Program-made: the position numbers and the translations under genes | Assembly: GCA_003009755.1 (NCBI GenBank) | Contig: PXUB01000009.1 | Span: 1-40,954 of the forward strand | Direction: 5' to 3' | DNA from: Thermoplasmatales archaeon SW_10_69_26 | GTDB lineage: Archaea; Thermoplasmatota; SW-10-69-26 | Length of the DNA: 40,954 nt | The notes under the pieces: model-generated | Seen by the model: only the letters and a program-made list of their open reading frames with translations | Databases searched by the model: none | Told to the model about the DNA's origin: nothing | Part shown: piece after piece, positions 28,049 through 40,495 of the stretch | Position numbering within the stretch: position 1 is the first letter of the stretch | Layout: each line of letters starts with the position of its first letter

Positions 28049-29812
28049 CTAGCCTTCGGGGACCGGTGAGGGGAGGGAACTGCCCATCGAGCGGACGCTG
28101 ATGCTCGCCTCTGGGGCACCCCCTTCCGTGAAACACCCGTCAACGAAGGCCGCATCGGACGTCCGCGAATGGAACGTCCACGTTCGCTCTTGGTCCTCGA
28201 CCTGCTCCGACCAAACAGGCACGGAGAATGTCTCGTTCGTTCCGGATCCCACCGCTGGAAGCCACACCGTCGAACCATCGACCGTATACCCGACCTCAAT
28301 CGGGGGATGGGGGGGACCGACAGCGACCTCGACCTCGAGGTAGTCGGTTCCCGGTCCGATGGTCCCCGTCCGTTCGAGTTCGCTCGGATTCATCGCCGGA
28401 CAGTCCGCTCCTGAGTCCTCGATCGGACTTCCCCCCACTGCTACCTCGGTGTCGCTGGCATTCGGTCCGACGATTTGGGTCAAGCTCGCCAGGATTCGGC
28501 CCTCTGAGGCCCAGGCGAAGATGCCGCGAGAAGGCCCAAACGCGATCCCGTACGCGTGGTTAAGGTTCGGATCGGGGTCGGCACTCGGCCCTGGCTCTCC
28601 CCTCGGTGTGGTCGACCCTTCGTCGACGAGATGCTGGTGGACAACGGTTTCCGATCCCGGATCGACGACCACGTGCGCGACGCGTTCGGCAAGGGGGGAG
28701 AATACATCGTCCCTGTCTCCGAGGTATAGACGTTCTTGGAGCAACAGATGGAGGTTCCCGGCGGGATCGGGCTCTGCCCAGAATACCTCTGTCGCCTCCC
28801 AATCCTCGTTGACGTGGAGATCATCGCTGAACGTTAGCCGGGTCCAACTTCGCCCGCCATCGTCACCGACGAACACGGAGACCTCGTTCCCGTCCTCAGG
28901 ACTCGTCGCGAAGAGCACGGAGGACCCTGACCCGGCGACGAGATGCCAGGGGTGAGACCCCTCCCTCGTGAAGTTGGAGACCTCCGACGTCGGCTCCGCC
29001 TGGCCAGCGACGCGATGGAATCGGAACCGATCTCCATCCCGGCATCCCAAAAGGACGCCCTCGTCGATGGAGACAGGTCGAGACGCGAGCTCGCAGCCCT
29101 CCACGCTGCCCGAAGACGCCACGGCACCATCGTCCCCCACGACGGTCCAGTTCACCGAGAAGTAGTCGGACCAGGCGATGATCGGCTGATCGTCAGGGGT
29201 GAACCCGAGCCAGGGCCGATCCGCTGTCTTGTTCGATGAAACGACGGTGCTGTGCACCCAATCCGCCCCAAGGTCGTCCGTTGCCGCATAGCCGACGTCG
29301 TATCCGGTCGAGGCGTCCGTTGGGAGCATCCCCGCGATGTGAAGACGCCCGTCCCTGTCGAACGCGATCGAAGGGTCACCGAGGAACTGCCGGCCGTCGA
29401 GCTGCGGCATCGGAACTTCCGTCCAGTCGCCCCCGCCGTCCTCCGAGACGAACATGCTGAGACTAGCGCCCTCGTAGTCTCCAGGCGGTGCGGGTTCCTC
29501 CCGGCTGTTGGCGAGGAGAACGGTGATTCGGGGATCGGCTGGATGGATAGCAACGTTCGGTTCGTACAAGGAGCGTTCGCTCTGCTCGATCACGGAGGCG
29601 CAGACCGAATCCTCGCTCTCCGTGTCTCCCTGAGGGCACTCCGAAACGTAGGTTTCCGCAAGGTAGCTGTTAGCGAGGTCCTGGGAGTCTCGATCCATCC
29701 CGGCGGGACTCCCGACGTTCCCGACGCATCCGACGGCGAGGGATGCGGTGAGCAGAACGACGACCAAGACGAGGGCCTCATCCACTGATCGTTGAACGTT
29801 ATGGCCGCACAT
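28049..29812 (-). CDS. Secreted sialidase-fold (BNR/Asp-box) lipoprotein
   Basis: ATG 29812 gives 587 residues opening with a long hydrophobic signal and lipobox (VLLTASLAVGC). Residues about 60-480 form a beta-propeller with Asp-box-like turns: SEDGGGDWTEV, TDDLGADWVHS and GDDGGRSWTRL, each followed by a hydrophobic strand. Propeller phrases such as DPSIAFDRDGRLHIAG and DRPWLGFTPDDQPIIAW recur. Residues about 490-587 look like a beta-sandwich (TDYLEVEVAVGPP, GYTVDGSTVWLPA). No arginine triad of true sialidases could be confirmed, so a binding propeller is as likely as a hydrolase. A paralogue lies at 37415-38845. Codon and base composition is less GC-rich than the housekeeping genes around it. 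The stop is about 30 bp from nnr. Confidence 0.75.
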   Translation of the reverse strand: MCGHNVQRSVDEALVLVVVLLTASLAVGCVGNVGSPAGMDRDSQDLANSYLAETYVSECPQGDTESEDSVCASVIEQSERSLYEPNVAIHPADPRITVLLANSREEPAPPGDYEGASLSMFVSEDGGGDWTEVPMPQLDGRQFLGDPSIAFDRDGRLHIAGMLPTDASTGYDVGYAATDDLGADWVHSTVVSSNKTADRPWLGFTPDDQPIIAWSDYFSVNWTVVGDDGAVASSGSVEGCELASRPVSIDEGVLLGCRDGDRFRFHRVAGQAEPTSEVSNFTREGSHPWHLVAGSGSSVLFATSPEDGNEVSVFVGDDGGRSWTRLTFSDDLHVNEDWEATEVFWAEPDPAGNLHLLLQERLYLGDRDDVFSPLAERVAHVVVDPGSETVVHQHLVDEGSTTPRGEPGPSADPDPNLNHAYGIAFGPSRGIFAWASEGRILASLTQIVGPNASDTEVAVGGSPIEDSGADCPAMNPSELERTGTIGPGTDYLEVEVAVGPPHPPIEVGYTVDGSTVWLPAVGSGTNETFSVPVWSEQVEDQERTWTFHSRTSDAAFVDGCFTEGGAPEASISVRSMGSSLPSPVPEG

Positions 29813-29854
29813 ATCACCTGGGGGAAGACAGAGAAGACGGAGAGGCCCTGTCAA

Positions 29855-30293
29855 GTACGGGGCTAGGGCCGTGGACCATCTTTAGGTGGTCCATGGTGCA
29901 CTCCGTACACTCGCCGTCACAGACGGGAAGGGAACCGCCCGCTTCCCATCACCATTCCTGCTTAATCGGGCTGGACGTTCTCGGGTGTCTCCACAGCGCC
30001 GAGACCCACCGCAGGGACCGGATCGGACAGCTGCGTTTGGATGTTTACATGGCTGAGGACGATGTTTCAGTAATCGGCCCAGTCGGCTCACTTGTCCCCC
30101 GGTTCCGGCGGACGGGGCGTCGAGGGCGAGGAGGACCCTAACGACCGAATATCCTGAGGAAAGCCAATTTACTCGCCTTTACAGGCGAGGCCATGCTCGG
30201 ACCGGATGGGCTCGCTGAGGCACCGTCTTCAACCATCGGAATATTCCTTCATCAGCCGAAAATTTTTGTTTTCCGATCGCGTTTCACCGAGTG
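29855..30293. other. Lower-GC intergenic region upstream of the trypsin-like gene
   Basis: About 440 bp without a credible gene. It holds the inverted repeats TGGACCA / TGGTCCA (29872-29878 / 29887-29893) and CTCGCCT / AGGCGAG (30172-30178 / 30183-30189, 4-nt loop). AT content rises strongly towards 30258-30272. Confidence 0.45.
30258..30272 (+). promoter_or_regulatory. TATA-like box for the trypsin-like lipoprotein gene
   Basis: GAAAATTTTTGTTTT, the most AT-rich run in this part of the window, is centred about 29 nt before the ATG at 30294 (leaderless). Confidence 0.55.
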
Positions 30294-31154
30294 ATGACCA
30301 GCCTTCGCGCGTGGGGGCTAATCCTCCTTTCGGTGGCAGCAGGAGTGCTTGCTACCGGATGTGTTGGGGAACAGAATTCGGACGCGAGCCGTGAAGGCCC
30401 ACCCGACCTGGACCAAACAGGCGCGAACCAATCCACGGTAACGAACCGATCCTTCACCCCTTGGCCTCCGGTTGAGAACGCAGAACTTCGCCCCGGAGGG
30501 CAGATGGATCCGTGTACAGTGGGTTTCCTATTCACTGACCAGTCGAACACGACCGCTTTCGTGAGCACTGCAGCCCATTGTGGTTCGGGAGACCACCTTC
30601 GAACCGGCGATGAGGTCGGCTTTCCCGAGGCGGAAATCACAGGACGAGTCGCTTACAGTAGTATAGAAACGATGGAAGCGGTGGACGAATCGTCGGAGGA
30701 TGCGCGATATTTCAATGACTTCGCCCTTGTTCGTATCCCTTATACGGCGTCGAACGAGGTACACCCCTCCGTCTATGAGTGGGGTGGCCCAGAGAACGTT
30801 TCAACCTCGGCCGACCGCGGAGAGCAGGTCTATACGTATGGCCAGAGCTCAACCCGGCAAGGAGCCCTGGATGCACGGCGAGGTGCAATCGTGGAACGAG
30901 AAGAGTGGCATTGGACGGTATACTTTGGCCCACCTTCCTATCCAGGCGACTCAGGGAGCCCCGTCCTGACGGAGAACGGGAAAGCCCTCGGCATCGTCAC
31001 CCACCTCGAGACATTCCCTCGCCCGGAGGCGAACACCGTTCTGAATCTGAGTCGCGCCTTAGATTACATGGAAAGCAAGACGGATGTGGACGCTGAGATC
31101 GCGACATCCTCCTTCGCTGATCCGTCACCGATCGAGGGTCCCGCAGCTCCCTGA
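30294..31154 (+). CDS. Secreted trypsin-like serine protease, lipoprotein
   Basis: This 286-residue protein has a lipoprotein signal ending VLATGC near residue 23. It has the S1 (chymotrypsin) family triad in order: STAAHC (His), NDFALVRI (Asp) and YPGDSGSP (Ser, with oxyanion glycine), followed by GKALGIVTHL. Two cysteines (DPCTVGF and AAHC) could form the usual disulfide. It should cleave proteins or process surface proteins outside the cell. GC content is lower than in neighbouring genes, suggesting acquisition or relaxed composition. A GTG precedes the chosen ATG by one codon. Confidence 0.87.
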   Translation: MTSLRAWGLILLSVAAGVLATGCVGEQNSDASREGPPDLDQTGANQSTVTNRSFTPWPPVENAELRPGGQMDPCTVGFLFTDQSNTTAFVSTAAHCGSGDHLRTGDEVGFPEAEITGRVAYSSIETMEAVDESSEDARYFNDFALVRIPYTASNEVHPSVYEWGGPENVSTSADRGEQVYTYGQSSTRQGALDARRGAIVEREEWHWTVYFGPPSYPGDSGSPVLTENGKALGIVTHLETFPRPEANTVLNLSRALDYMESKTDVDAEIATSSFADPSPIEGPAAP

Positions 31155-31922: not shown

Positions 31923-32699
31923 GTGAGCACCCGGCTGGTCCCCCTGTTCGACGAGCGCGCCATGCTGGTGGAGACCAGCCCCGATCGCGTGCTGGTCGCC
32001 GGTGACCTGCACCTGGGCATGGAGCGCGAGCTTCGCAAGGACGGGGTGCACGGGATCGAGGAGACCGAGGGCCTGATCGCCCACCTGGGTGAGCTGGCCG
32101 CCGAGGAGCGCGTCGACCGCGTCCTGTTGCTCGGCGACGTCAAGCACACGCTGGGCGCCTGGGAGCCGGAGAAACGCGCCCTGAGCGGGCTGGCCGAGCT
32201 GCCGGTGCCCGTCGAGGTCGTGCCCGGCAACCACGACGGCGAGATCGACGAGATCGCTCCGTTCCTGAAGATCCACGACGCGCGCGGGTTGACGATCGGT
32301 GAGGTCGGGTTCCTGCACGGGCACACCTGGCCCAACGAGGAGATCACCGACGGCGGCCGCCTGGTGCTGTCCCACAACCACCCCCACGTGGCGTTGCGCG
32401 ACGGGCTGGGCCAGGTCTCCACCGAACCCTGCTGGGTGCGAGCCCCGATCCCCGACAGCGAGGCGAACCGCGAGCGCTACCCGGACGCTGACCTGCCCGG
32501 CGAGGCCGTGCTCGTCCCGGCGTTCAACCCGCTGTTGGGCGGGGTGGCGTTGAACCGACCCGAGGACGAGGCCTTGGGCCCGTTGTTGACGAACGACGTG
32601 ATCGATCTCGGTGCCGGCCGCGTGTACACCTTGGACGGGGTCGAGCTGGGCACGATCGCCGACCTGGAGGAGCGTCTCGATGACGACGACGTTCGATGA
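31923..32699 (+). CDS. Calcineurin-like metallophosphoesterase, partner of Lhr
   Basis: This 258-residue protein has the metallophosphoesterase motifs: GDLH (residues 27-30), GDVKH (71-75), GNHD (102-105), GH in FLHGHTWP (133-134) and SHNHPH (150-155), which together hold two metal ions. Related archaeal proteins are annotated as exonuclease-like phosphoesterases. Its last 20 bases overlap the start of the lhr helicase gene, and in bacteria an MPE nuclease and Lhr-Core are known to be encoded together in a repair gene cluster. A shared DNA-repair role is therefore likely. The GTG start lies about 29 nt after CCTTCAAGAC. Confidence 0.9.
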   Translation: MSTRLVPLFDERAMLVETSPDRVLVAGDLHLGMERELRKDGVHGIEETEGLIAHLGELAAEERVDRVLLLGDVKHTLGAWEPEKRALSGLAELPVPVEVVPGNHDGEIDEIAPFLKIHDARGLTIGEVGFLHGHTWPNEEITDGGRLVLSHNHPHVALRDGLGQVSTEPCWVRAPIPDSEANRERYPDADLPGEAVLVPAFNPLLGGVALNRPEDEALGPLLTNDVIDLGAGRVYTLDGVELGTIADLEERLDDDDVR

Positions 32700-35397
32700 G
32701 CTGCATCCCCGCCTCCAGGACCTGCTGGAGCGCGAGGGCTTCGAGGATCCGACCGAGGCCCAGGCCAAGGCCTTCGGCCCGATCCTCGACGGCCGACACA
32801 CCCTGCTGTTGGCCCCGACCGGCATGGGCAAGACCGAGGCCGCCGTCCTGCCGATCCTCGACGAGCTCGTCGAGCTGCCCGACGAGGAGCGCGAGGGCTT
32901 CGTGGCGATCTACGTCACGCCCTTGCGCGCCCTCAACCGCGACATCCTGACCCGGCTCGAGGACTGGTGCGAGTTCCTCGACGTCACGATCGGCGTCCGC
33001 CACGGCGACACCACCCAAGCCGAGCGCCGCCGCCAGTCGAAGAACCCGCCCGAGTTCCTGATCACGACGCCGGAGACCCTGCAGGCGATCTTCACCGGCT
33101 CGCGGCTGCGCGAGCACCTCGACGGGACGAAGTTCGTCGTCGTGGACGAGATCCACGAACTCGTCGGCAACGAGCGCGGCGCCCAGCTGGCCTGCGCGAT
33201 GGAGCGCATCACCCGCTACAGCGACGGGTTCCAGCGCGTGGGCTTGTCGGCGACCGTCGGCAACCCGGAGGAGACCGGCGAGTTCCTCGCCGGGGGCAAC
33301 CGGGACGCCGAGATCGTGCACGTGCCGGTCGGCAAGGACCTCGAGGTCACCGTCGAGGTGCCCGAGGTGACCGAGGAGGACCAGGTGCTCTCGGACAAGC
33401 TGTACTGCGGGGTGCGTGAAGCCTCGCTGGTGCGGCGGATCGTGGAGCTCGTCGAGGAGAACACGAGCACGCTCGTGTTCGTCAACACGCGCCGCATGGC
33501 CGAGGTGCTGGCCGCTCGCTTGGGGTTCTGGGACGTCGACGACATCCGCGTCCACCACGGATCCCTGCACAAGGAGGAGCGCGTGACCGTCGAGGAGGCG
33601 TTCAAGGCCGGCGAGATCTCCGGCCTGATCTGCACCTCGTCGATGGAGCTGGGCATCGACATTGGCTCGGCCGACTTCGTCGAGGGTCTCGTCATCGCGG
33701 AGGGCGCCCTGGCCGAGGACGTCGAGACAGCGCCGATCCCCGAGAACCCGCTCGACGTGCTCGCCAACCAGCTGGAGGCGATGAGCCTGGAAGGCGACGT
33801 CCCCCTCGACGAGGCCATGGGCACCCTGCGGCGGGCTCGTCCGTTCTGGTCGTTGTCCGACGAGACCGCCGTGGCCGTCATCGAGCAGATGGAGTCCACG
33901 CGCCTCGTCGAGCGCGATCGAGGCAACCTCACCCGCTTGGGTCGGGCGCGGTTGCACTTCGTCGAGAACCTCTCGATGATCCCGGATCAGACGACGTTCC
34001 TCGTCCGGGACGTCTCCTCGCGGCGCCCGATCGGCACCCTCGACGAGGCGTTCGTGATGAACTACGTCGAGCCGGGCGCCCTCGTCGTGCTGAAGGGCGA
34101 ACCCTGGCGCGTCGTCGAGGTCGAGGAACCCGACGAGGACGACGACGAGGACGAGGAGCCCGACATCCTCGTCGCGCCCGTCAAGGACCCGACCGGCGCC
34201 GTGCCGAGCTGGGTCGGCCAGGAGATCCCGGTCCCGTACGAGATCGCCCAGGGCGTCGGGCGGTTGCGCGGGGAGATCCACGAGCGCCTGCAAGCCGGCG
34301 AGGCCGCCGAGGAGGTTGCACGCGACGTGGCCGAGGAGCACCACACCGACGCGCACACGGCCTCGTTCCTCGTCGAGGGGCTGGCCGAGCAGGAGGAAGC
34401 TCTCATGCCGACCGACGAGATCGCGGTCCTCGAGACCGGCGAGGACGGCGTCGTGCTCAACGCCTGCCTGGGCCACAAAGCCAACGAGGCGCTGGGCACC
34501 GTGCTCAGCGGCCTGATCGCGGCCCGCATCGGGGAAAGCGTCGGCGTGGACGTCGACCCCTACCGCGTCATGCTCGAGCTGCCCCGCGGCACGCGACCCG
34601 GCATCGTTCAGACCGTGCTCGACGAGATCACCGGCTCGCCGCTGGACGGGCTGGTCGAGACGCTGATCACGAACCAACCCTTGCTGCGGTTCAAGCTCGT
34701 GCACGTCGCCCGCAAGTTCGGCGTGCTCGACAAGACGGCCTCCTCGATGAACATGAACGTGAAGCGGTTGCTCGACCGCTTCGAGGACACGCCCCTGCAC
34801 GAGGAGGCGGTGCGCGAGATCCTGCACGAGCGCATCGACGTGCCCCGCGCCGAAGCGTTCCTCCAGCAGCTCGAGGAGGGCACGGTCGCGCTCGAGAAAC
34901 AGCGGATGTCCCCGGTCGGCCAGCTCGGGTTCGAGGAGGCGGTGGACCTGGTGTCGCCCGGCCGCGCCACGGCCGCGATCCTGGAGGCCATGAGCGACCG
35001 CCTGGCGGACGAACCGGTCGTGCTGCACTGCATGCACTGCGGGGACTGGACCCGGCAGACGCGCGTCAAGCGCGTCCGCGAGCCGATCGATTGCCCCAAG
35101 TGTGGAGCCCAGGTCGTCACGATGGTGCGCCCGTGGATGGAGGAGCAGCTCAACGTTCTCTCCAAGGATGGCGAGCTGTCCCCCGACGAGCGGAAGACGC
35201 GCGAGAAGCTGGAGACGAAAGCCAGCCTGCTGTCCGCCCACGGCAAGGACGCGCTCGTCGCCCTCGTCTCGCGCGGCGTGGGCCCGACCACGGCCGGCCG
35301 CATCCTCGCCAAGCAGGTCGGCGACCGCGAGGGCCTGCTGCGGGAGCTGATGCAGGCCGAGATCGACTACGCCAGGACGCGGGAGTTCTGGGACTGA
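32680..35397 (+). CDS. lhr: Lhr-type DNA helicase (large helicase-related protein)
   Basis: This 905-residue superfamily 2 helicase has Walker A APTGMGKT (residues 45-52), DEIH (156-159), SAT (190-192), and helicase-domain-2 motifs TRRMAEVL and GIDIGSADFVEG. After the RecA-like pair come winged-helix and Lhr-specific domains, an acidic insertion (PDEDDDEDEEPD near residue 485), and a zinc ribbon with C784, C787, C805 and C808. It ends DYARTREFWD, typical of archaeal Lhr proteins. Lhr enzymes translocate on single-stranded DNA and unwind RNA-DNA hybrids in repair. The ATG is preceded by GGAGG inside the metallophosphoesterase gene. The last 17 bases lie inside a 281-bp repeat that recurs 3.77 kb downstream. 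Confidence 0.95.
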   Translation: MTTTFDELHPRLQDLLEREGFEDPTEAQAKAFGPILDGRHTLLLAPTGMGKTEAAVLPILDELVELPDEEREGFVAIYVTPLRALNRDILTRLEDWCEFLDVTIGVRHGDTTQAERRRQSKNPPEFLITTPETLQAIFTGSRLREHLDGTKFVVVDEIHELVGNERGAQLACAMERITRYSDGFQRVGLSATVGNPEETGEFLAGGNRDAEIVHVPVGKDLEVTVEVPEVTEEDQVLSDKLYCGVREASLVRRIVELVEENTSTLVFVNTRRMAEVLAARLGFWDVDDIRVHHGSLHKEERVTVEEAFKAGEISGLICTSSMELGIDIGSADFVEGLVIAEGALAEDVETAPIPENPLDVLANQLEAMSLEGDVPLDEAMGTLRRARPFWSLSDETAVAVIEQMESTRLVERDRGNLTRLGRARLHFVENLSMIPDQTTFLVRDVSSRRPIGTLDEAFVMNYVEPGALVVLKGEPWRVVEVEEPDEDDDEDEEPDILVAPVKDPTGAVPSWVGQEIPVPYEIAQGVGRLRGEIHERLQAGEAAEEVARDVAEEHHTDAHTASFLVEGLAEQEEALMPTDEIAVLETGEDGVVLNACLGHKANEALGTVLSGLIAARIGESVGVDVDPYRVMLELPRGTRPGIVQTVLDEITGSPLDGLVETLITNQPLLRFKLVHVARKFGVLDKTASSMNMNVKRLLDRFEDTPLHEEAVREILHERIDVPRAEAFLQQLEEGTVALEKQRMSPVGQLGFEEAVDLVSPGRATAAILEAMSDRLADEPVVLHCMHCGDWTRQTRVKRVREPIDCPKCGAQVVTMVRPWMEEQLNVLSKDGELSPDERKTREKLETKASLLSAHGKDALVALVSRGVGPTTAGRILAKQVGDREGLLRELMQAEIDYARTREFWD

Positions 35398-35661
35398 ACA
35401 TTTCCTTTTTCAACGGAACCCCGGTGCCTGGCGACCCCCGGGAAACGAAGATCTTCGGAAAGGATGCGAGGGTTCGCCTGGCCCCAGGTACCCTCGCAAT
35501 CCGGCCGAAGCGGAGCTTCGGCCTCTCCGGAGACCGAACGGTGTCGCCGGTCTCCGGATGAAAACGGGGGCCGCCAGCGTTCCCAGACGCCGACGGAGGC
35601 GGCCCGGCGTCTCCGGAGAGGACGGATCTCCGATCCGTCCGCAACGCAGGCCCCATCGACG
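35381..35661. repeat. 281-bp hairpin-rich repeat, copy 1, starting in the lhr 3' end
   Basis: Nearly identical to 39154-39434 (same length; about ten substitutions counted by eye). It starts at GGGAGTTCTGGGACTGA, the last codons and stop of lhr, and ends at CCCCATCGACG. It contains consecutive inverted repeats: GCGAGGGT / ACCCTCGC (35468 region), GGCCGAAGC / GCTTCGGCC (35502-35522), CCGGAGACCG / CGGTCTCCGG, GGGCCGCC / GGCGGCCC, and GGACGGATC / GATCCGTCC with a 3-nt loop. No gene is supported between 35398 and 35893. Confidence 0.85.
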
Positions 35662-35677
35662 CTGGTCTGTGAGGCTG

Positions 35678-35840
35678 CTGTATCTTTGCGCAGGGCTATC
35701 GACGCCGGACCTGTTCCGACGCTGTCGCGGTGGGCCCGGAACGCAGCCCCGGATGGTCCCGAGCTGTCACCTCGCTGGATCTTCGCGCAAGGCTATCGCC
35801 GACGGCCCTGCTTCGACGTGGTTGCGACCGGCCCGCGGTC
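35678..35840. repeat. Degenerate direct repeat, 97-bp period
   Basis: CTGTATCTTTGCGCAGGGCT at 35678 and CTGGATCTTCGCGCAAGGCT at 35775 begin two copies of about 62 bp that remain alignable (GACCTGTTCCGACGCTGTC versus GCCCTGCTTCGACGTGGTT). A perfect hairpin, GGACGGGC-TCTC-GCCCGTCC, follows at 35861-35880. No coding function seen. Confidence 0.5.
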
Positions 35841-35893
35841 GATCGGAGGAGAAGAGACCCGGACGGGCTCTCGCCCGTCCGTTGGTGACCGGA

Positions 35894-36364
35894 TCACAGC
35901 GGGCCGTCGACGACCTCGATCGTGTCGTAGCCGAGGAAGATCGCGACCCGATCGGGGTTGTCGTCCTCGACCCGGGCGTCCTCGTTGCAAGGGTTGTGAT
36001 CGTACCCGACCGGGCCCGCCTGGGCGCCGATGCTGATGCAGTGCTCGAGCGGGATCTCCTCCTTGGGGGTCCAGTCCTCGTCGATGCTGATCTGCGGGTC
36101 GCACTGCCAGACAGCGACGGAGGCCGGGCCGACCTGTTGCTCGGGCACGATCACGTACCAGCAGTGGTGTTGGGTGGTGGCCAGGCCCTCGTCGGGGTTG
36201 GCCTCGACGACGACGCCCTGGCAGTTGTCGTACTTGGCCGTGGCCTCGTCCTCCTCGACGCCGACCTCCCAGCAGTGCTCGGCCGAGGACGTGGGCGCCA
36301 GTGCGATCATGGTCACGAGCGCGACGCAGAACGCGATGCCGTAGGTTGCAAGCTTGCGGTTCAT
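35894..36364 (-). CDS. Small secreted cysteine-rich protein
   Basis: This 156-residue protein has a clear signal peptide (YGIAFCVALVTMIALAPTSSA) and a mature acidic domain with six cysteines (EHCWEV, DNCQGV, HHCWYV, WQCDPQ, EHCISI, NPCNED) that could form three disulfides. The pattern H-C-W occurs twice. No family recognised. ATG 36364 follows GGGAGAG, and a TATA-like AAGCCTTTTCC lies about 50 nt upstream. It is the first gene after the lhr-linked repeat and reads towards it. Confidence 0.7.
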   Translation of the reverse strand: MNRKLATYGIAFCVALVTMIALAPTSSAEHCWEVGVEEDEATAKYDNCQGVVVEANPDEGLATTQHHCWYVIVPEQQVGPASVAVWQCDPQISIDEDWTPKEEIPLEHCISIGAQAGPVGYDHNPCNEDARVEDDNPDRVAIFLGYDTIEVVDGPL

Positions 36365-36464
36365 GGACTCTCCCTTCGAACGGGTGGAGCCGCTGACGCT
36401 GGCCGGTGGGGAAAAGGCTTGCTGGTCCGCAACGCGCGTGTTCGGGCCTGGGAGGGCCCTTCCT

Positions 36465-37176
36465 TCACGGTCGCCGGCTGACGGCTTGCCAGCTCGCGAT
36501 CGCTCCCGCTACCGCGAGGGCGCCGAGCGGGCTCGGGGCAGGCGCGGTTCGTTGTTCGTCGCCGCCGTCCGTCGATCCGTTCGGGTCTCCACTGGCTCGG
36601 GAGGGCTCGGCCTGCGTCGAAGGTTCGGTCTCCGCCGAGGGCTCGTCCTCCTCGCCGGGGTTGGGGGTCGCCTTCACGGGTTCGAGGCTGACCTGGGCCT
36701 GGGAGCCTTGCAGCGTGAAGGCGCCCGTCGTGTTCGCGAGCACGGTGACCTCGGCCCCGCCGGCAACCGCCCCCGCGGGTGATGGCCAGCTCGATCGTGG
36801 CCTCGTCGCGCTGGCTCGGCTCGGCCGGGTCGCGTCGGTGGGGGTGGTTGGTCGACGGGTGCTCGACCTCCGAGGGCGTCACGTTGGTCCTCGTCCCGTC
36901 GGGAGCCCCGACCGCCAACCGGGTCTCTGTGGTCTGCAGGGTGACGACGTAGCTCGGGTAGGTGTAGACGAGCTCGAGGTCGAGCTCGATCGGGGATCCG
37001 TTGGCCACCGTCAGGGATCCCTCTGGGGCCTCCAGAGAGGTCTCCGATCCCGGGAGGTGGAAGGCTTGCCCGCCGAGGCCGAGGCCGACCAAGCTCGCGA
37101 CGACCGCGAGCGCCATCCATCGCCCGACCGGCCGCGGGCTCGACCGCTCGGTCTGCGTCGATCTCCGTCGAGCCAT
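36465..37176 (-). pseudogene. Exported membrane-anchored protein gene with a frameshift
   Basis: From ATG 37176 the frame encodes an N-terminal hydrophobic helix (WMALAVVASLVGLGLGG), then a beta-rich domain to ATIELAITRG. After that it turns into Arg-rich nonsense. From about 36775 the neighbouring frame continues sensibly: GAVAGGAEVTVLANTTGAFT, an acidic Ser/Thr/Pro linker, and a C-terminal helix with basic tail (PLGALAVAGAIASWQAVSRR) ending at 36465. One base gained or lost in the GGGGG run near 36775-36779 joins them into about 236 residues. The design (helix, domain, linker, C-terminal anchor) suits a surface protein. Decay, sequencing error or slippage are all possible. Confidence 0.65.
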
Positions 37177-37245
37177 CGATCCGCGAGGGGGCCTAGGACG
37201 GCAAGAAGACAGCGGCCACGGCGTTAACCTTCACTGGGCGCGGGT

Positions 37246-37372
37246 GTGGCGGGCGGGCCCGACGAGGAGCAGCCGCATCCTCGCCAAGAGCCACGGCCAC
37301 GAGGACGAGCTGTTGCGCGAGCTCTGCAGGTCCGAGATCGATTACGCCCGAACGCGCGATTTTTGGGATCGA
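37246..37372 (+). pseudogene. Displaced, diverged fragment of the lhr 3' end
   Basis: The plus strand reads GPTRSSRILAKSHGHEDELL then RELCRSEIDYARTRDFWD. This aligns with the last 40 residues of the nearby Lhr (GPTTAGRILAKQVGDREGLL, RELMQAEIDYARTREFWD). The stop codon is lost (GACTGA became GATCGA). It has no helicase body or start and lies 1.85 kb downstream of the real lhr end. Confidence 0.8.
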
Positions 37373-37414
37373 GCGCAGGGGTTGACGGCAACTCAGGATG
37401 AGGAGCCCGCTGAC

Positions 37415-38845
37415 TCAGGACCCCGTCTCGGCAAACGCGTAGGCGGTCGCCCACTCGTTCGTCGTCCAGGTGAGCATCGTGCGATCGTCGACGACCTCGA
37501 CATCGTAGTAGTCGTCGGCGGGTCCGCGGTTGGGGGACGGGTTGCTCTCGGTCGAGGTCTCGGGCGGCTTCAGCTCAGTCTCGGCCACAATGGTCAGGTT
37601 GGCCGGGTGCAGGACGACGTGGGCGACCGGGCGCTGGCCGCGATCGTACGGGGCGAAGGTGGCAGGCGAGTGCGTGAACAGGACGTGCACGTAGCCGTCG
37701 GCGCCGGCGCCCATCGCGTAGACGAAGGGGTTGACGAGCGGTTCGGGCCAGTCCTCGTTGACGGTCGCCTCCTCGATGACGTCGATCGAGACGTTCCACG
37801 TCTCCCCACCATCCGGGCTGTGGGCCATCTGGCCGCCATAGCAGGCGGAGACGATCACGTCGTCGATCGGGTTGGCCAGGAACGGGGAGTTGACCGGGCA
37901 GCCGCCCTCGACGGCGGCGAGCCGGTCGAGGCCGCCAGTCACGGGATCGAGCTCGTAGACGTCGAACTGACCGTCGTGCTCGCAGGCGACGAGGAGCCCG
38001 GCCGAGGTCGCTTCCACCGGGGAGATGCTGTCGCAGGACTCCAGCAGGCTCGCGTTGCCCGGCGTCCGCCACGTCTCACCGGCGTCCGTGCTCGTCGCGA
38101 TCGACGAGGTGCTGTTGGGCTGGTTGCGCCAGCTCGTGAACAGGATCCCGTTGACCGGCCCGGTAAGCCACTGGCGGTCGTGGTCGGTGTCCGCCGCCAG
38201 CAGGGTCTCGTGCTCCCACGAGTCGCCGAGGTCGGTGGATCGCATCGCGAAGACCCGGGTCTCGGACTGCTCCACGAAGCCAGGGTTGTCCGACGGTTCG
38301 CCGGGTGGCTCCTGGAAGGAGATCAGGCCCGTGAAGTGCAGCCGGCCCGCCTCGTCGAACACGAGCGAGGGGTCGGCGCCGCTGCGGTCCCGAGCCGGTA
38401 TCGTCTCGGGGACGTCGCCGAGCGGAATCGGGTTGCGCTCCCAGCTCTCGCCGGCGTCGGTCGTGACGTAGACGGCGAGTCCGACGTTCTCGGCGCCGCT
38501 GTTCTCCTCCTGGCCGCTGGGCTGGGCCTTGCCTTCCATGACACCGACGGCGATCGTGGCCGGATCGGTGGGGTGCACGGCCTGGAAGGGTTCACCCAGC
38601 GTGCGCAAGGGATCCTCGATCAGGCCCGCGCAAACGTCGCCCGTCGGTTGGAAGGTCGCGCCCTCGGGGCAGGGGTAGGAGACGTTCACCTCGGCCGGCA
38701 GCTCGGTGACGGGCGAGGCCTGGTTCTCCTCGCTGGCGTCCCCCGCCGGCCTAGAGCCTCCTGCATCGGAACCGACCTCGAGGCATCCCCCGATGAAGAC
38801 GACAGAGAGAAGAACGGCTGCCGTACACAGCCTCCGGATGTCCAT
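37415..38845 (-). CDS. Secreted sialidase-fold (BNR/Asp-box) lipoprotein, paralogue of the 28-kb gene
   Basis: ATG 38845 gives 476 residues beginning MDIRRLCTAAVLLSVVFIGG followed by Cys21, a lipoprotein signal. The propeller contains Asp-box turns TTDAGESWERN, STDLGDSWEHE, STDAGETWRTP and SPDGGETWNVS plus strands such as DPSLVFDEAGRLHFTG. The order of elements, an N-terminal Cys-bearing stretch (PCPEGATFQPTGDVC) and the VHPTDPATIAVGV phrase match the protein at 28049-29812 (IHPADPRITVLLA), so they are paralogues. It lacks the C-terminal beta-sandwich of that protein. Substrate or ligand unknown. A TATA-like AATGTTTTTC about 30 nt upstream gives a leaderless start. Confidence 0.8.
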   Translation of the reverse strand: MDIRRLCTAAVLLSVVFIGGCLEVGSDAGGSRPAGDASEENQASPVTELPAEVNVSYPCPEGATFQPTGDVCAGLIEDPLRTLGEPFQAVHPTDPATIAVGVMEGKAQPSGQEENSGAENVGLAVYVTTDAGESWERNPIPLGDVPETIPARDRSGADPSLVFDEAGRLHFTGLISFQEPPGEPSDNPGFVEQSETRVFAMRSTDLGDSWEHETLLAADTDHDRQWLTGPVNGILFTSWRNQPNSTSSIATSTDAGETWRTPGNASLLESCDSISPVEATSAGLLVACEHDGQFDVYELDPVTGGLDRLAAVEGGCPVNSPFLANPIDDVIVSACYGGQMAHSPDGGETWNVSIDVIEEATVNEDWPEPLVNPFVYAMGAGADGYVHVLFTHSPATFAPYDRGQRPVAHVVLHPANLTIVAETELKPPETSTESNPSPNRGPADDYYDVEVVDDRTMLTWTTNEWATAYAFAETGS

Positions 38846-38870
38846 CGCTGAAATGGTGAATCTCACCGAA

Positions 38871-38880
38871 GAAAAACATT
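38871..38880 (-). promoter_or_regulatory. TATA-like box for the second sialidase-fold gene
   Basis: AATGTTTTTC on the minus strand, centred about 30 nt before ATG 38845. Confidence 0.45.
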
Positions 38881-38996
38881 GGGTTTCCATCGTTGGCGGG
38901 TGCGGGGAATCGAGCAGCGACAGAAAGGCCCCTACCGCCGCCAAACGGGGCTGTAAGGACACCCGAATTCTTTCCTTGTCGACCTTTGCCCCTTCG

Positions 38997-39170
38997 ATGG
39001 CTCTCCCGCGTTCCGATCTCTGCTTCATCGCGTTCCTTGCTTTGGCGGCCATAGTTATCGGAATAGGAAGCGGGGGAGTGATCGCTTCGAGCCACAGCGA
39101 TTCGCCAGCGGTCGTGCCAGTTGACGTCCGGTCCCATCCGCCCCTAGAGGAGAGGGAGTTCTGGGACTGA
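38997..39170 (+). pseudogene. Truncated exported-protein gene fused to the lhr terminal codons
   Basis: From ATG 38997 the frame encodes MALPRSDLCFIAFLALAAIV and a Gly/Ser-rich stretch, a normal signal-anchor start similar to the one at 40495 (MAVVDRRLGLPLVVAMTLIV). After about 49 residues it runs into repeat copy 2 and ends REFWD-stop, the C-terminus of Lhr. The junction at 39154 marks where the repeat replaced the rest of the gene. An AT-rich ATTCTTTCC about 25 nt upstream suggests its promoter survives. Confidence 0.6.
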
Positions 39171-39434
39171 ACATCTCCTTTTTCAACGGGGCCCTGGTGC
39201 GTGGCGACCCCCGGGAAACGAAGATCTTCGGAAAGGATGCGAGGGTTCGCCTGGCCCCAGGAACCCTCGCAATCCGCCCGAAGCGGAGCTTCGGCCTCTC
39301 CGGAGACCGAACGGTTTCGCCGGTCTCCGGAAGAAAACGGGGGCCGCCAGCGTTCGCAGACGCCGACGGAGGCGGCCCGGCGTCTCCGGAGAGGACGGAT
39401 CTCCGATCCGTCCGCAACGCAGGCCCCATCGACG
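39154..39434. repeat. 281-bp hairpin-rich repeat, copy 2
   Basis: Near-identical to 35381-35661, including the lhr-end bases at its left edge and all five hairpins; here GCGAGGGTTC / GAACCCTCGC is a perfect 10-bp stem. 39435-39553 holds no gene that I can support. Confidence 0.85.
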
Positions 39435-39553
39435 ATGACCTTCGACGCTGCTCTACTTCCCGCACGACGACCGTCGCTTGACGGGCTCCTGCGCGAAGGT
39501 GCGCGATGCGGCGATGGTGGGGCCGGGTTCGCGGTAACGGTCGGTGATCCGAT

Positions 39554-40495
39554 CTACCCTTCTTCGCAGGTCAACGTCGGGTCCATCCCGTTCGCGGGAA
39601 GCCCGCCAGGGTGGGGTGGGGGTACCGCGAAGGAAGCCAGACCCAAGGGTCCCTGGCTCTGTGCGGATAGGGATAGCGCAAAGCCGTCGTCCATCTGCCT
39701 CGTCAGGCAGAGGATCCCCGGCGCTTTCGCATCCGACCAGGACCGGCAGACGTCCTCTGTCGATTCGACGCAGTAGGTGAGGTCGGCGGACGAGACGACG
39801 ATCTGGGTCGTCGAGACCCAGTTCGCATAGCCCTGCAGCTCCCCCCGGGCATCCTCGATGATCGTGGGCCCGAACCGGCTTGTCGCAGCGATCTCGGCGT
39901 CGAGATCCGCCAGGTCCCACGCGAGAGGGGATCGATCGAGGCTCCTCGTCTCCACCTCGGCCGCTCCGGTCCAGTTCAGCCAGACGGTCAGGTCCCGGTC
40001 CTCGGCAAGGCCCAATCCGAAGACCAAGGCCGGATCCGCGGGACCGCGGTCGAGCGTGAAATGGCGCTCCCCCTCCTCTGTTCCATTGAGGAGCTCCGGA
40101 CTCACCGGCGAGCTCGAGAACGACTGCCTGGCCAGGCCCCCTCTGAGGGTCGGTGAGTTCACGGAGTCCATCGCCACCGCGAGCGGAACGTCGGTCCGCG
40201 TTCCGTTCGGGTAGACGAACCCCACGACCTCCGGATCAGGGCCATCGTTGGTGAGAGTGTACGCGAGCGAGAACTTAGCGTCCACGGCCTCCTCGACGCT
40301 GACCACCATCGTCGGGCGATCGCCGTCGAGGTGGACCGCGAGAGAACGGTTCTCCTCCAGGGAGGAGGAAGCGTTTTCACGGACTTCCGAAGAGGAGGGG
40401 TCGACGTGGCCTCCGCTGGCGACGATGATCCCTCCCACAATCAAGGTCATCGCCACCACCAAGGGGAGACCCAGCCGACGATCAACGACAGCCAT
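39554..40495 (-). CDS. Membrane-anchored exported protein of unknown function
   Basis: This 313-residue protein has an N-terminal signal-anchor (LPLVVAMTLIVGGIIVASGG) and a beta-rich ectodomain with sequons (ENASSS, NGTRTD, NWTGAA, NGTEEG). Residues about 55-110 include FSLAYTLTNDGPDPEVVGFV and YPNGTRTDVPL, similar in layout to the domain of the frameshifted gene at 36465-37176 (VGAPDGTRTNVTP). Cysteines near residues 245-265 (LTYCVES, DVCRSW, GILCLT) could pair. Its ATG overlaps the stop of the next upstream gene (TGATG), so the two form an operon. Confidence 0.65.
   Translation of the reverse strand: MAVVDRRLGLPLVVAMTLIVGGIIVASGGHVDPSSSEVRENASSSLEENRSLAVHLDGDRPTMVVSVEEAVDAKFSLAYTLTNDGPDPEVVGFVYPNGTRTDVPLAVAMDSVNSPTLRGGLARQSFSSSPVSPELLNGTEEGERHFTLDRGPADPALVFGLGLAEDRDLTVWLNWTGAAEVETRSLDRSPLAWDLADLDAEIAATSRFGPTIIEDARGELQGYANWVSTTQIVVSSADLTYCVESTEDVCRSWSDAKAPGILCLTRQMDDGFALSLSAQSQGPLGLASFAVPPPHPGGLPANGMDPTLTCEEG

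Follow-up and report, generated by a model that had tools for sequence, protein, structure and literature searches.

Does the repeated 3' end of lhr in an uncultivated archaeon mark a site where a foreign element has integrated, or does it carry a sequence of another kind? In the genome of Thermoplasmatales archaeon SW_10_69_26, a 49-contig draft that is 95% complete (G000), a 281-bp block begins in the last bases of this helicase gene and recurs further downstream. The window that we analysed, at its full length of 40,954 nucleotides, is the entire contig C9 (PXUB01000009.1). A reading made from the letters of this DNA alone, hereafter the sequence-only reading, had taken the block as a sign of site-specific integration at lhr, by what may be a satellite element mobilised in trans, or else of a recombination hot spot. 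We favour a different answer, in which the block consists mostly of one copy of a dispersed, structured element often found at gene 3' ends, and local duplication or recombination at lhr produced its second copy with no need of a site-specific integrase. We give this reading a probability of roughly 0.55. The features concerned are these:

32611 to 35397, plus strand: lhr, encoding a large helicase-related protein, an open reading frame (ORF) of 928 amino acids (Pfam DEAD, Helicase_C, WH_Lhr, DEAD_assoc).
35381 to 35661, plus strand: copy 1 of the 281-bp block, with the last 17 bp of lhr and most of the structured element.
35395 to 35725, plus strand: copy 1 of the structured element, starting at the lhr stop codon, its 3' end approximate (from alignment with other genomic copies).
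35740 to 35800, plus strand: a further, incomplete copy of the 3' tail of the element, GGATCTTCGCGCAAGGCTATCGCCG, matching core 189-214 in L076/L079.
37211 to 37368 (best supported at 37255-37368), plus strand: a decayed lhr 3' fragment that has lost its stop codon (from the DNA repeat and tblastn).
39154 to 39434, plus strand: copy 2 of the 281-bp block, with the same 17 bp of the lhr tail.
39168 to 39490, plus strand: copy 2 of the structured element, its 3' end approximate (from alignment with other copies and covariance model R1).

The direct repeat is real. Positions 35381-35680 align with 39154-39453, 3773 bp from start to start, and the 281 bp at 35381-35661 and 39154-39434 differ by only 10 mismatches, sliding identity collapsing at both edges. 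The repeat also starts, as had been read from the sequence, with the last 17 bases of lhr. The lhr stop codon is the TGA at 35395-35397, and the true start of the gene is probably near 32680. Because the C-terminal ending FWD, followed by the stop, is kept in five of six class relatives and is FWS in the sixth, we take the stop to be native. The right edge of the block falls inside the element, both copies running on into diverged versions of its 3' tail, rather than at an att-like core.

We found the repeat to be one member of a dispersed family. A blastn search of its own genome gave 20 matches with the repeat as query and 37 with a sister copy, and the covariance model R1, built from an alignment (A2) of ten insert-free copies, gave 33, with copy 1 matched at 35396-35545 and 35579-35723. 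When pieces were merged, the family occupied about 28 places on 18 contigs. The core of the element is about 165 nt long, and some copies, both lhr copies included, carry additional palindromic hairpin modules. Outside this genome, the remaining six genomes of the class yielded nothing beyond two marginal matches (E between 5e-4 and 7e-3), and 145 sampled genomes of the phylum yielded none at E<=1e-4 and under stricter filters; nor did relatives of the element turn up in plasmids, phages or IMG/VR. A scan of genome contigs for close relatives returned only Poseidoniaceae at 37%. The Rfam 15 covariance models had no match above chance in the window or in six copy-bearing loci, and we rejected a known structured RNA family on the ground of this chance-level search. 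By these comparisons the family would be lineage-specific and previously undescribed, known from the genome of one uncultivated archaeon, and we regard it as the main novelty of the analysis.

Because the lhr repeat is one of about 28 dispersed copies, it is probably not an integration scar. The sequence-only reading held that an incoming element regenerates the 3' end of lhr and that nested remnants record repeated use of the site; dispersal of the repeat at many unrelated gene ends, which is what we found, had been named beforehand as an outcome that would refute it. The family sits at many gene ends, so the repeat is not specific to a target gene either. The 17-bp lhr tail at the far end, the older displaced tail between the copies and a gene order that, past lhr, is not conserved in the class speak for integration. 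Against them stand the dispersal of the repeat, its edge inside the element, a far copy that holds only 17 bp of lhr, a middle tail that has no repeat, and a repeat with no plasmid, phage or viral relative. The recombinases of the genome also point elsewhere. No integrase is present on contig C9, in agreement with the sequence-only reading, and the three Phage_integrase matches genome-wide, on C2, C19 and C1, lie beside tRNA genes (tRNA-Gly, tRNA-Glu and tRNA-Phe). The loci are L084:1501-1956 (tRNA-Gly), L085:1501-2055 (tRNA-Phe) and L086:1501-1992 (tRNA-Glu), and two of them have arrays of palindromic modules close by. Elements of the tyrosine-recombinase type thus appear to use tRNA genes in this genome. 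The genome has no Y1 transposase (PF01797), a search that was positive in 5 of 14 control genomes, and no reverse transcriptase. Since the recombinases sit at tRNA genes and neither of these enzymes is present, nothing points to an integrase at lhr.

The region downstream of lhr was also compared across relatives. Gene order there differs throughout the class. The only genome of the same family is without the repeat, but its contig ends 313 bp after lhr; the gene that follows lhr in it has no homology to the genes between the two window copies (E 0.13). Overall, we hold site-specific integration at lhr to be improbable.

The position of the element relative to genes is precise in many copies. 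In eleven copies the start lies no more than a few bases from the stop codon of a same-strand coding frame. The 11 host genes are those for Lhr, ribosomal protein S27ae, a cyclophilin, an S15-type peptidase, a tocopherol-cyclase-like protein, RtcB, archease, NMD3, PheS, an aminoacyl-tRNA editing protein and one unknown protein; by a post hoc count, 7 of the 11 act on RNA or in translation. RtcB, archease and S27ae are of native length by Pfam coverage, and the stops of RtcB and archease are native because both proteins align to the very end of their models. TAG is the stop codon in 9 of the 11 genes that abut the element, as compared with 39 of 128 sampled gene ends of the genome. Most of the 11 stop-abutting copies have a UUUUUCUUUC-type tract about 4-8 nt past the stop, which is degenerate in some (C2_44268, C40_8410), and U-rich starts directly after the stop are otherwise rare to nearly absent among the gene ends sampled. 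RtcB (L093, C43:28881) and its cofactor archease (L096, C43:42124) lie 13 kb apart, both with the element exactly at the stop.

The consensus of ten copies folds into a long interrupted stem, and a second helix, helix A, pairs the U-tract and the bases that directly follow the stop codon with an A-rich strand in the loop of that stem. In copy 1 the strands lie as follows:

35401 to 35411, plus strand: U-rich tract, degenerate here, that forms the 5' strand of helix A.
35424 to 35440, plus strand: CCTGGCG-A-CCCCCG, the 5' strand of long stem C, whose partner strand is 35565-35579 (CGGGGGCCGCCAGCG), with a compensatory swap in other copies.
35441 to 35457, plus strand: A-rich tract that lies in the long stem's apical loop and forms the 3' strand of helix A.

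Counted by pairs, pairing was 93.8%, as compared with 83.2% after shuffling and 40-56% when slid. In a set of 17 copies, which includes window copy 2 and from which inserts were spliced out for alignment, pairing was 90.3%, and 43 cells were changed on both sides, as compared with 17.2 in shuffles (0 of 500). The upper stem is GGGGG/CCCCC in some copies and CCCCC/GGGGG in others, the swapped version being intact in the lhr copies. Helix A covaries as well (GAG/CUC, GACC/GGUC and GAAGAU/AUCUUC). Strand-swap tests gave 0 of 5000 for each of helices A, B and C, and the controls with mismatched strands failed, at 2357, 1756 and 357 of 5000; helix A with one copy per subtype gave 2 of 20000. The two-sided compensatory changes therefore exceed both the shuffles and the slid controls, as a structured RNA would have it. 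We also considered that the changes had arisen by inversion of whole hairpins and rejected this, the loop sequences keeping their orientation. When folded by energy, most copies form helix A over their first 62 nt, and most form the long stem B/C over their full length.

Helix A and stem B/C cross in topology, so that they are probably mutually exclusive, a geometry that is our own estimate. Because two covarying pairings cross and can hardly coexist, we favour a bistable element. We propose that the upstream message would end in the element, transcribed as part of it. Helix A, which begins at the stop codon, would form early and bury the U-rich tract, and the long stem B/C, which can form only after about 100 nt, would compete with it. 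Since archaeal termination by aCPSF1 is known to use U-tracts (PMC8716108), a role in 3'-end formation suggests itself, with helix A hiding the tract that aCPSF1 would use and stem B/C exposing it. The most likely function, we infer, is that of a bistable switch at the 3' end, in which a terminator U-tract is either hidden or exposed. It is a doubtful further step that the family represents a new class of bistable RNA at stop codons, which would co-regulate RtcB, archease, NMD3, PheS, the aminoacyl-tRNA editing protein, S27ae and Lhr through 3'-end formation or translation termination.

The same fold might serve mobility. The element could be a non-autonomous mobile repeat that needs its fold as single-stranded DNA or RNA in order to move and that inserts at stop codons, one insertion at lhr having later been duplicated. 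Many copies in one genome and none in relatives fit such a repeat, as do the tight stop-codon register, in which TAG may belong to the element, and the placing of insert modules at apical loops. However, no Y1 transposase or reverse transcriptase exists in this nearly complete genome, and we rejected a mobile origin through either enzyme for this reason. An alignment of 22 copies showed neither conserved terminal inverted repeats nor evident target-site duplications, although no empty sites were available in which duplications could be seen. Moreover, the copies have diverged by up to about 30% and yet keep their pairing, which suggests long residence under selection. We hold a mobile repeat possible but clearly the less probable explanation.

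How, then, did the lhr locus come to its present form? The second, diverged lhr 3' fragment that had been read between the copies is real (37255-37368). It is 72% identical to lhr in DNA without gaps, 31 of its 54 residues are identical to lhr 875-928 (tblastn, E=2e-11), and its stop codon TGA has mutated to CGA. The mismatches to lhr are spread over the three codon positions (11/8/13), unlike those between lhr and its same-family relative (8/8/20), which fall mostly in third positions. This comparison, although it covers few sites, favours neutral decay of the fragment, and on it we rejected import of the fragment from a functional, diverged lhr. The fragment would thus be an older duplicate of the lhr tail that decays neutrally. 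Copies 1 and 2 are sisters, because they are 96% identical and have in common 17 bp that occur only at the lhr locus; other copies are at most 84% identical and hold no lhr sequence. A single simple duplication of the whole element does not explain the 281-bp block and was rejected, the 3' tails of the two copies being too different. Since the tails differ beyond position 281, recombination or gene conversion within the element fits better. The two copies may have come from local duplication, or from homologous recombination for which the element and 17 bp of lhr provided the homology. Partial tandem copies, mostly of the 3' part, follow several full copies, at C32:56109-56415 (L087/L104), at C41:61868-62122 and in the window at 35740-35800, and suggest local amplification. 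That the 3' end of lhr is a spot of repeated rearrangement is supported. The claim that the site was used repeatedly holds to this extent: the 3' sequence of lhr was copied to downstream positions at least twice, as the decayed tail of 54 codons and as the 17 bp with the repeat, but probably not by integration.

An assembly artefact, in which two strain versions of the region downstream of lhr were joined in tandem, would also place two similar copies in a row. The draft is of metagenome style, its repeats break the assembly (modules lie at several contig ends) and the window is a whole contig. Nonetheless, 10 of 281 sites differ, so that an assembler should separate the copies, unique sequence flanks both of them, and the decayed middle tail is truly diverged. 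We consider such a joining very improbable.

Several points weigh against a structured 3'-end element with local duplication as we describe it. About 17 of the 28 copies have no detectable stop codon at their start, and the codon model used for calling the upstream genes had only seven window genes as its training set. The covariation tests were drawn on related copies, and helices A and B are partly decayed in the lhr copies themselves. That the element is transcribed, and that it would affect 3' ends, we deduce from the letters of the genome. In a family confined to one species, long-term function in cis is inseparable from mobility that needs the fold. The duplication itself may have been tandem duplication, Campbell-type recombination or one-sided gene conversion.

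Within the repeat interval, the remaining features are inserted modules and protein genes:

35502 to 35559, minus strand: inserted palindromic module in inverted orientation (match 35503-35526, minus).
35583 to 35641, plus strand: second inserted palindromic module, in direct orientation (match 35617-35640, plus).
35894 to 36364, minus strand: exported protein of 156 amino acids with no Pfam family (ORF and Pfam search).
36361 to 37176, minus strand: frameshifted gene for an exported protein whose C-terminus is a transmembrane tail (the second part is in frame at 36465-36743).
37415 to 38845, minus strand: BNR-repeat lipoprotein, a paralogue of 28049-29854 (26-30% amino acid identity; Pfam).

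In each module AGAGG separates a variable-sequence hairpin from a following hairpin of the GATC-TCC-GATC type (GATC-TNC-GATC), and modules lie in the loop region of the lhr copies and of three other copies. The module motif had 30 matches in the genome (L012-L017 and L118-L147 among the loci concerned), as compared with 0 for a reversed-pattern control, and several of the matches lie at contig ends. At about 1147-1215 of L084, the variable hairpin seems to be built from the 3' end of tRNA-Gly and its inverted copy.

The sequence-only reading had all intact cargo encode exported proteins. This is correct for 35894-36364 and 37415-38845; the gene at 36361-37176 is broken by a single frameshift near 36743-36780. 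It is not specific to the interval, as the genes at 28049-29854, 30291-31154 and 39554-40495, outside it, encode proteins of exported type too. Because genes on either side look exported, export characterises the neighbourhood as a whole. With the query used, BNR-repeat exported proteins were found only twice in the genome, both times on C9, one on either side of lhr.

The rearrangement at lhr is itself modest; the element family matters more, since what it does could be tested directly. How archaeal messages are regulated at their 3' ends has been little explored, and an element at stop codons with two competing, covarying folds offers a direct handle on it. The locus also cautions that apparent integration scars at gene 3' ends can be dispersed 3'-end repeats combined with ordinary recombination.

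Among known systems, elements moved by tyrosine recombinases at gene 3' ends likewise have a duplicated gene 3' end that bounds a block of genes, but the repeat here is dispersed, has no recombinase, and has its edge inside the repeat element. Miniature inverted-repeat transposable elements (MITEs) are similar as short, non-coding, dispersed hairpin repeats with lineage-specific expansion; they differ in that we found neither terminal inverted repeats nor target-site duplications, nor a parent transposase, and in that the register here is fixed at stop codons. The repetitive extragenic palindromes (REPs) of bacteria and archaea and the bacterial interspersed mosaic elements (BIMEs) come closer, being dispersed extragenic palindromes and composites of alternating hairpin modules that often lie near stop codons, as at about 28 places here. 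In E. coli, REPs no more than 15 nt from a stop codon have been reported to stall ribosomes (PMC12306157). In contrast to REPs and BIMEs, our element is far longer and low in copy number, begins in exact register with the stop codon and has two covarying structures that cross, in a genome without the REP-associated Y1 (RAYT) transposase. With the archaeal U-tract terminators used by aCPSF1 (PMC8716108) it shares a U-rich tract a few bases past the stop codon, but its tract is buried in a hairpin within a conserved, covarying structure of 165 nt, and most genes sampled in this genome have no such tract. The element therefore fits neither the REPs and BIMEs nor the U-tract terminators fully, and we file it among dispersed structured 3'-end repeats.

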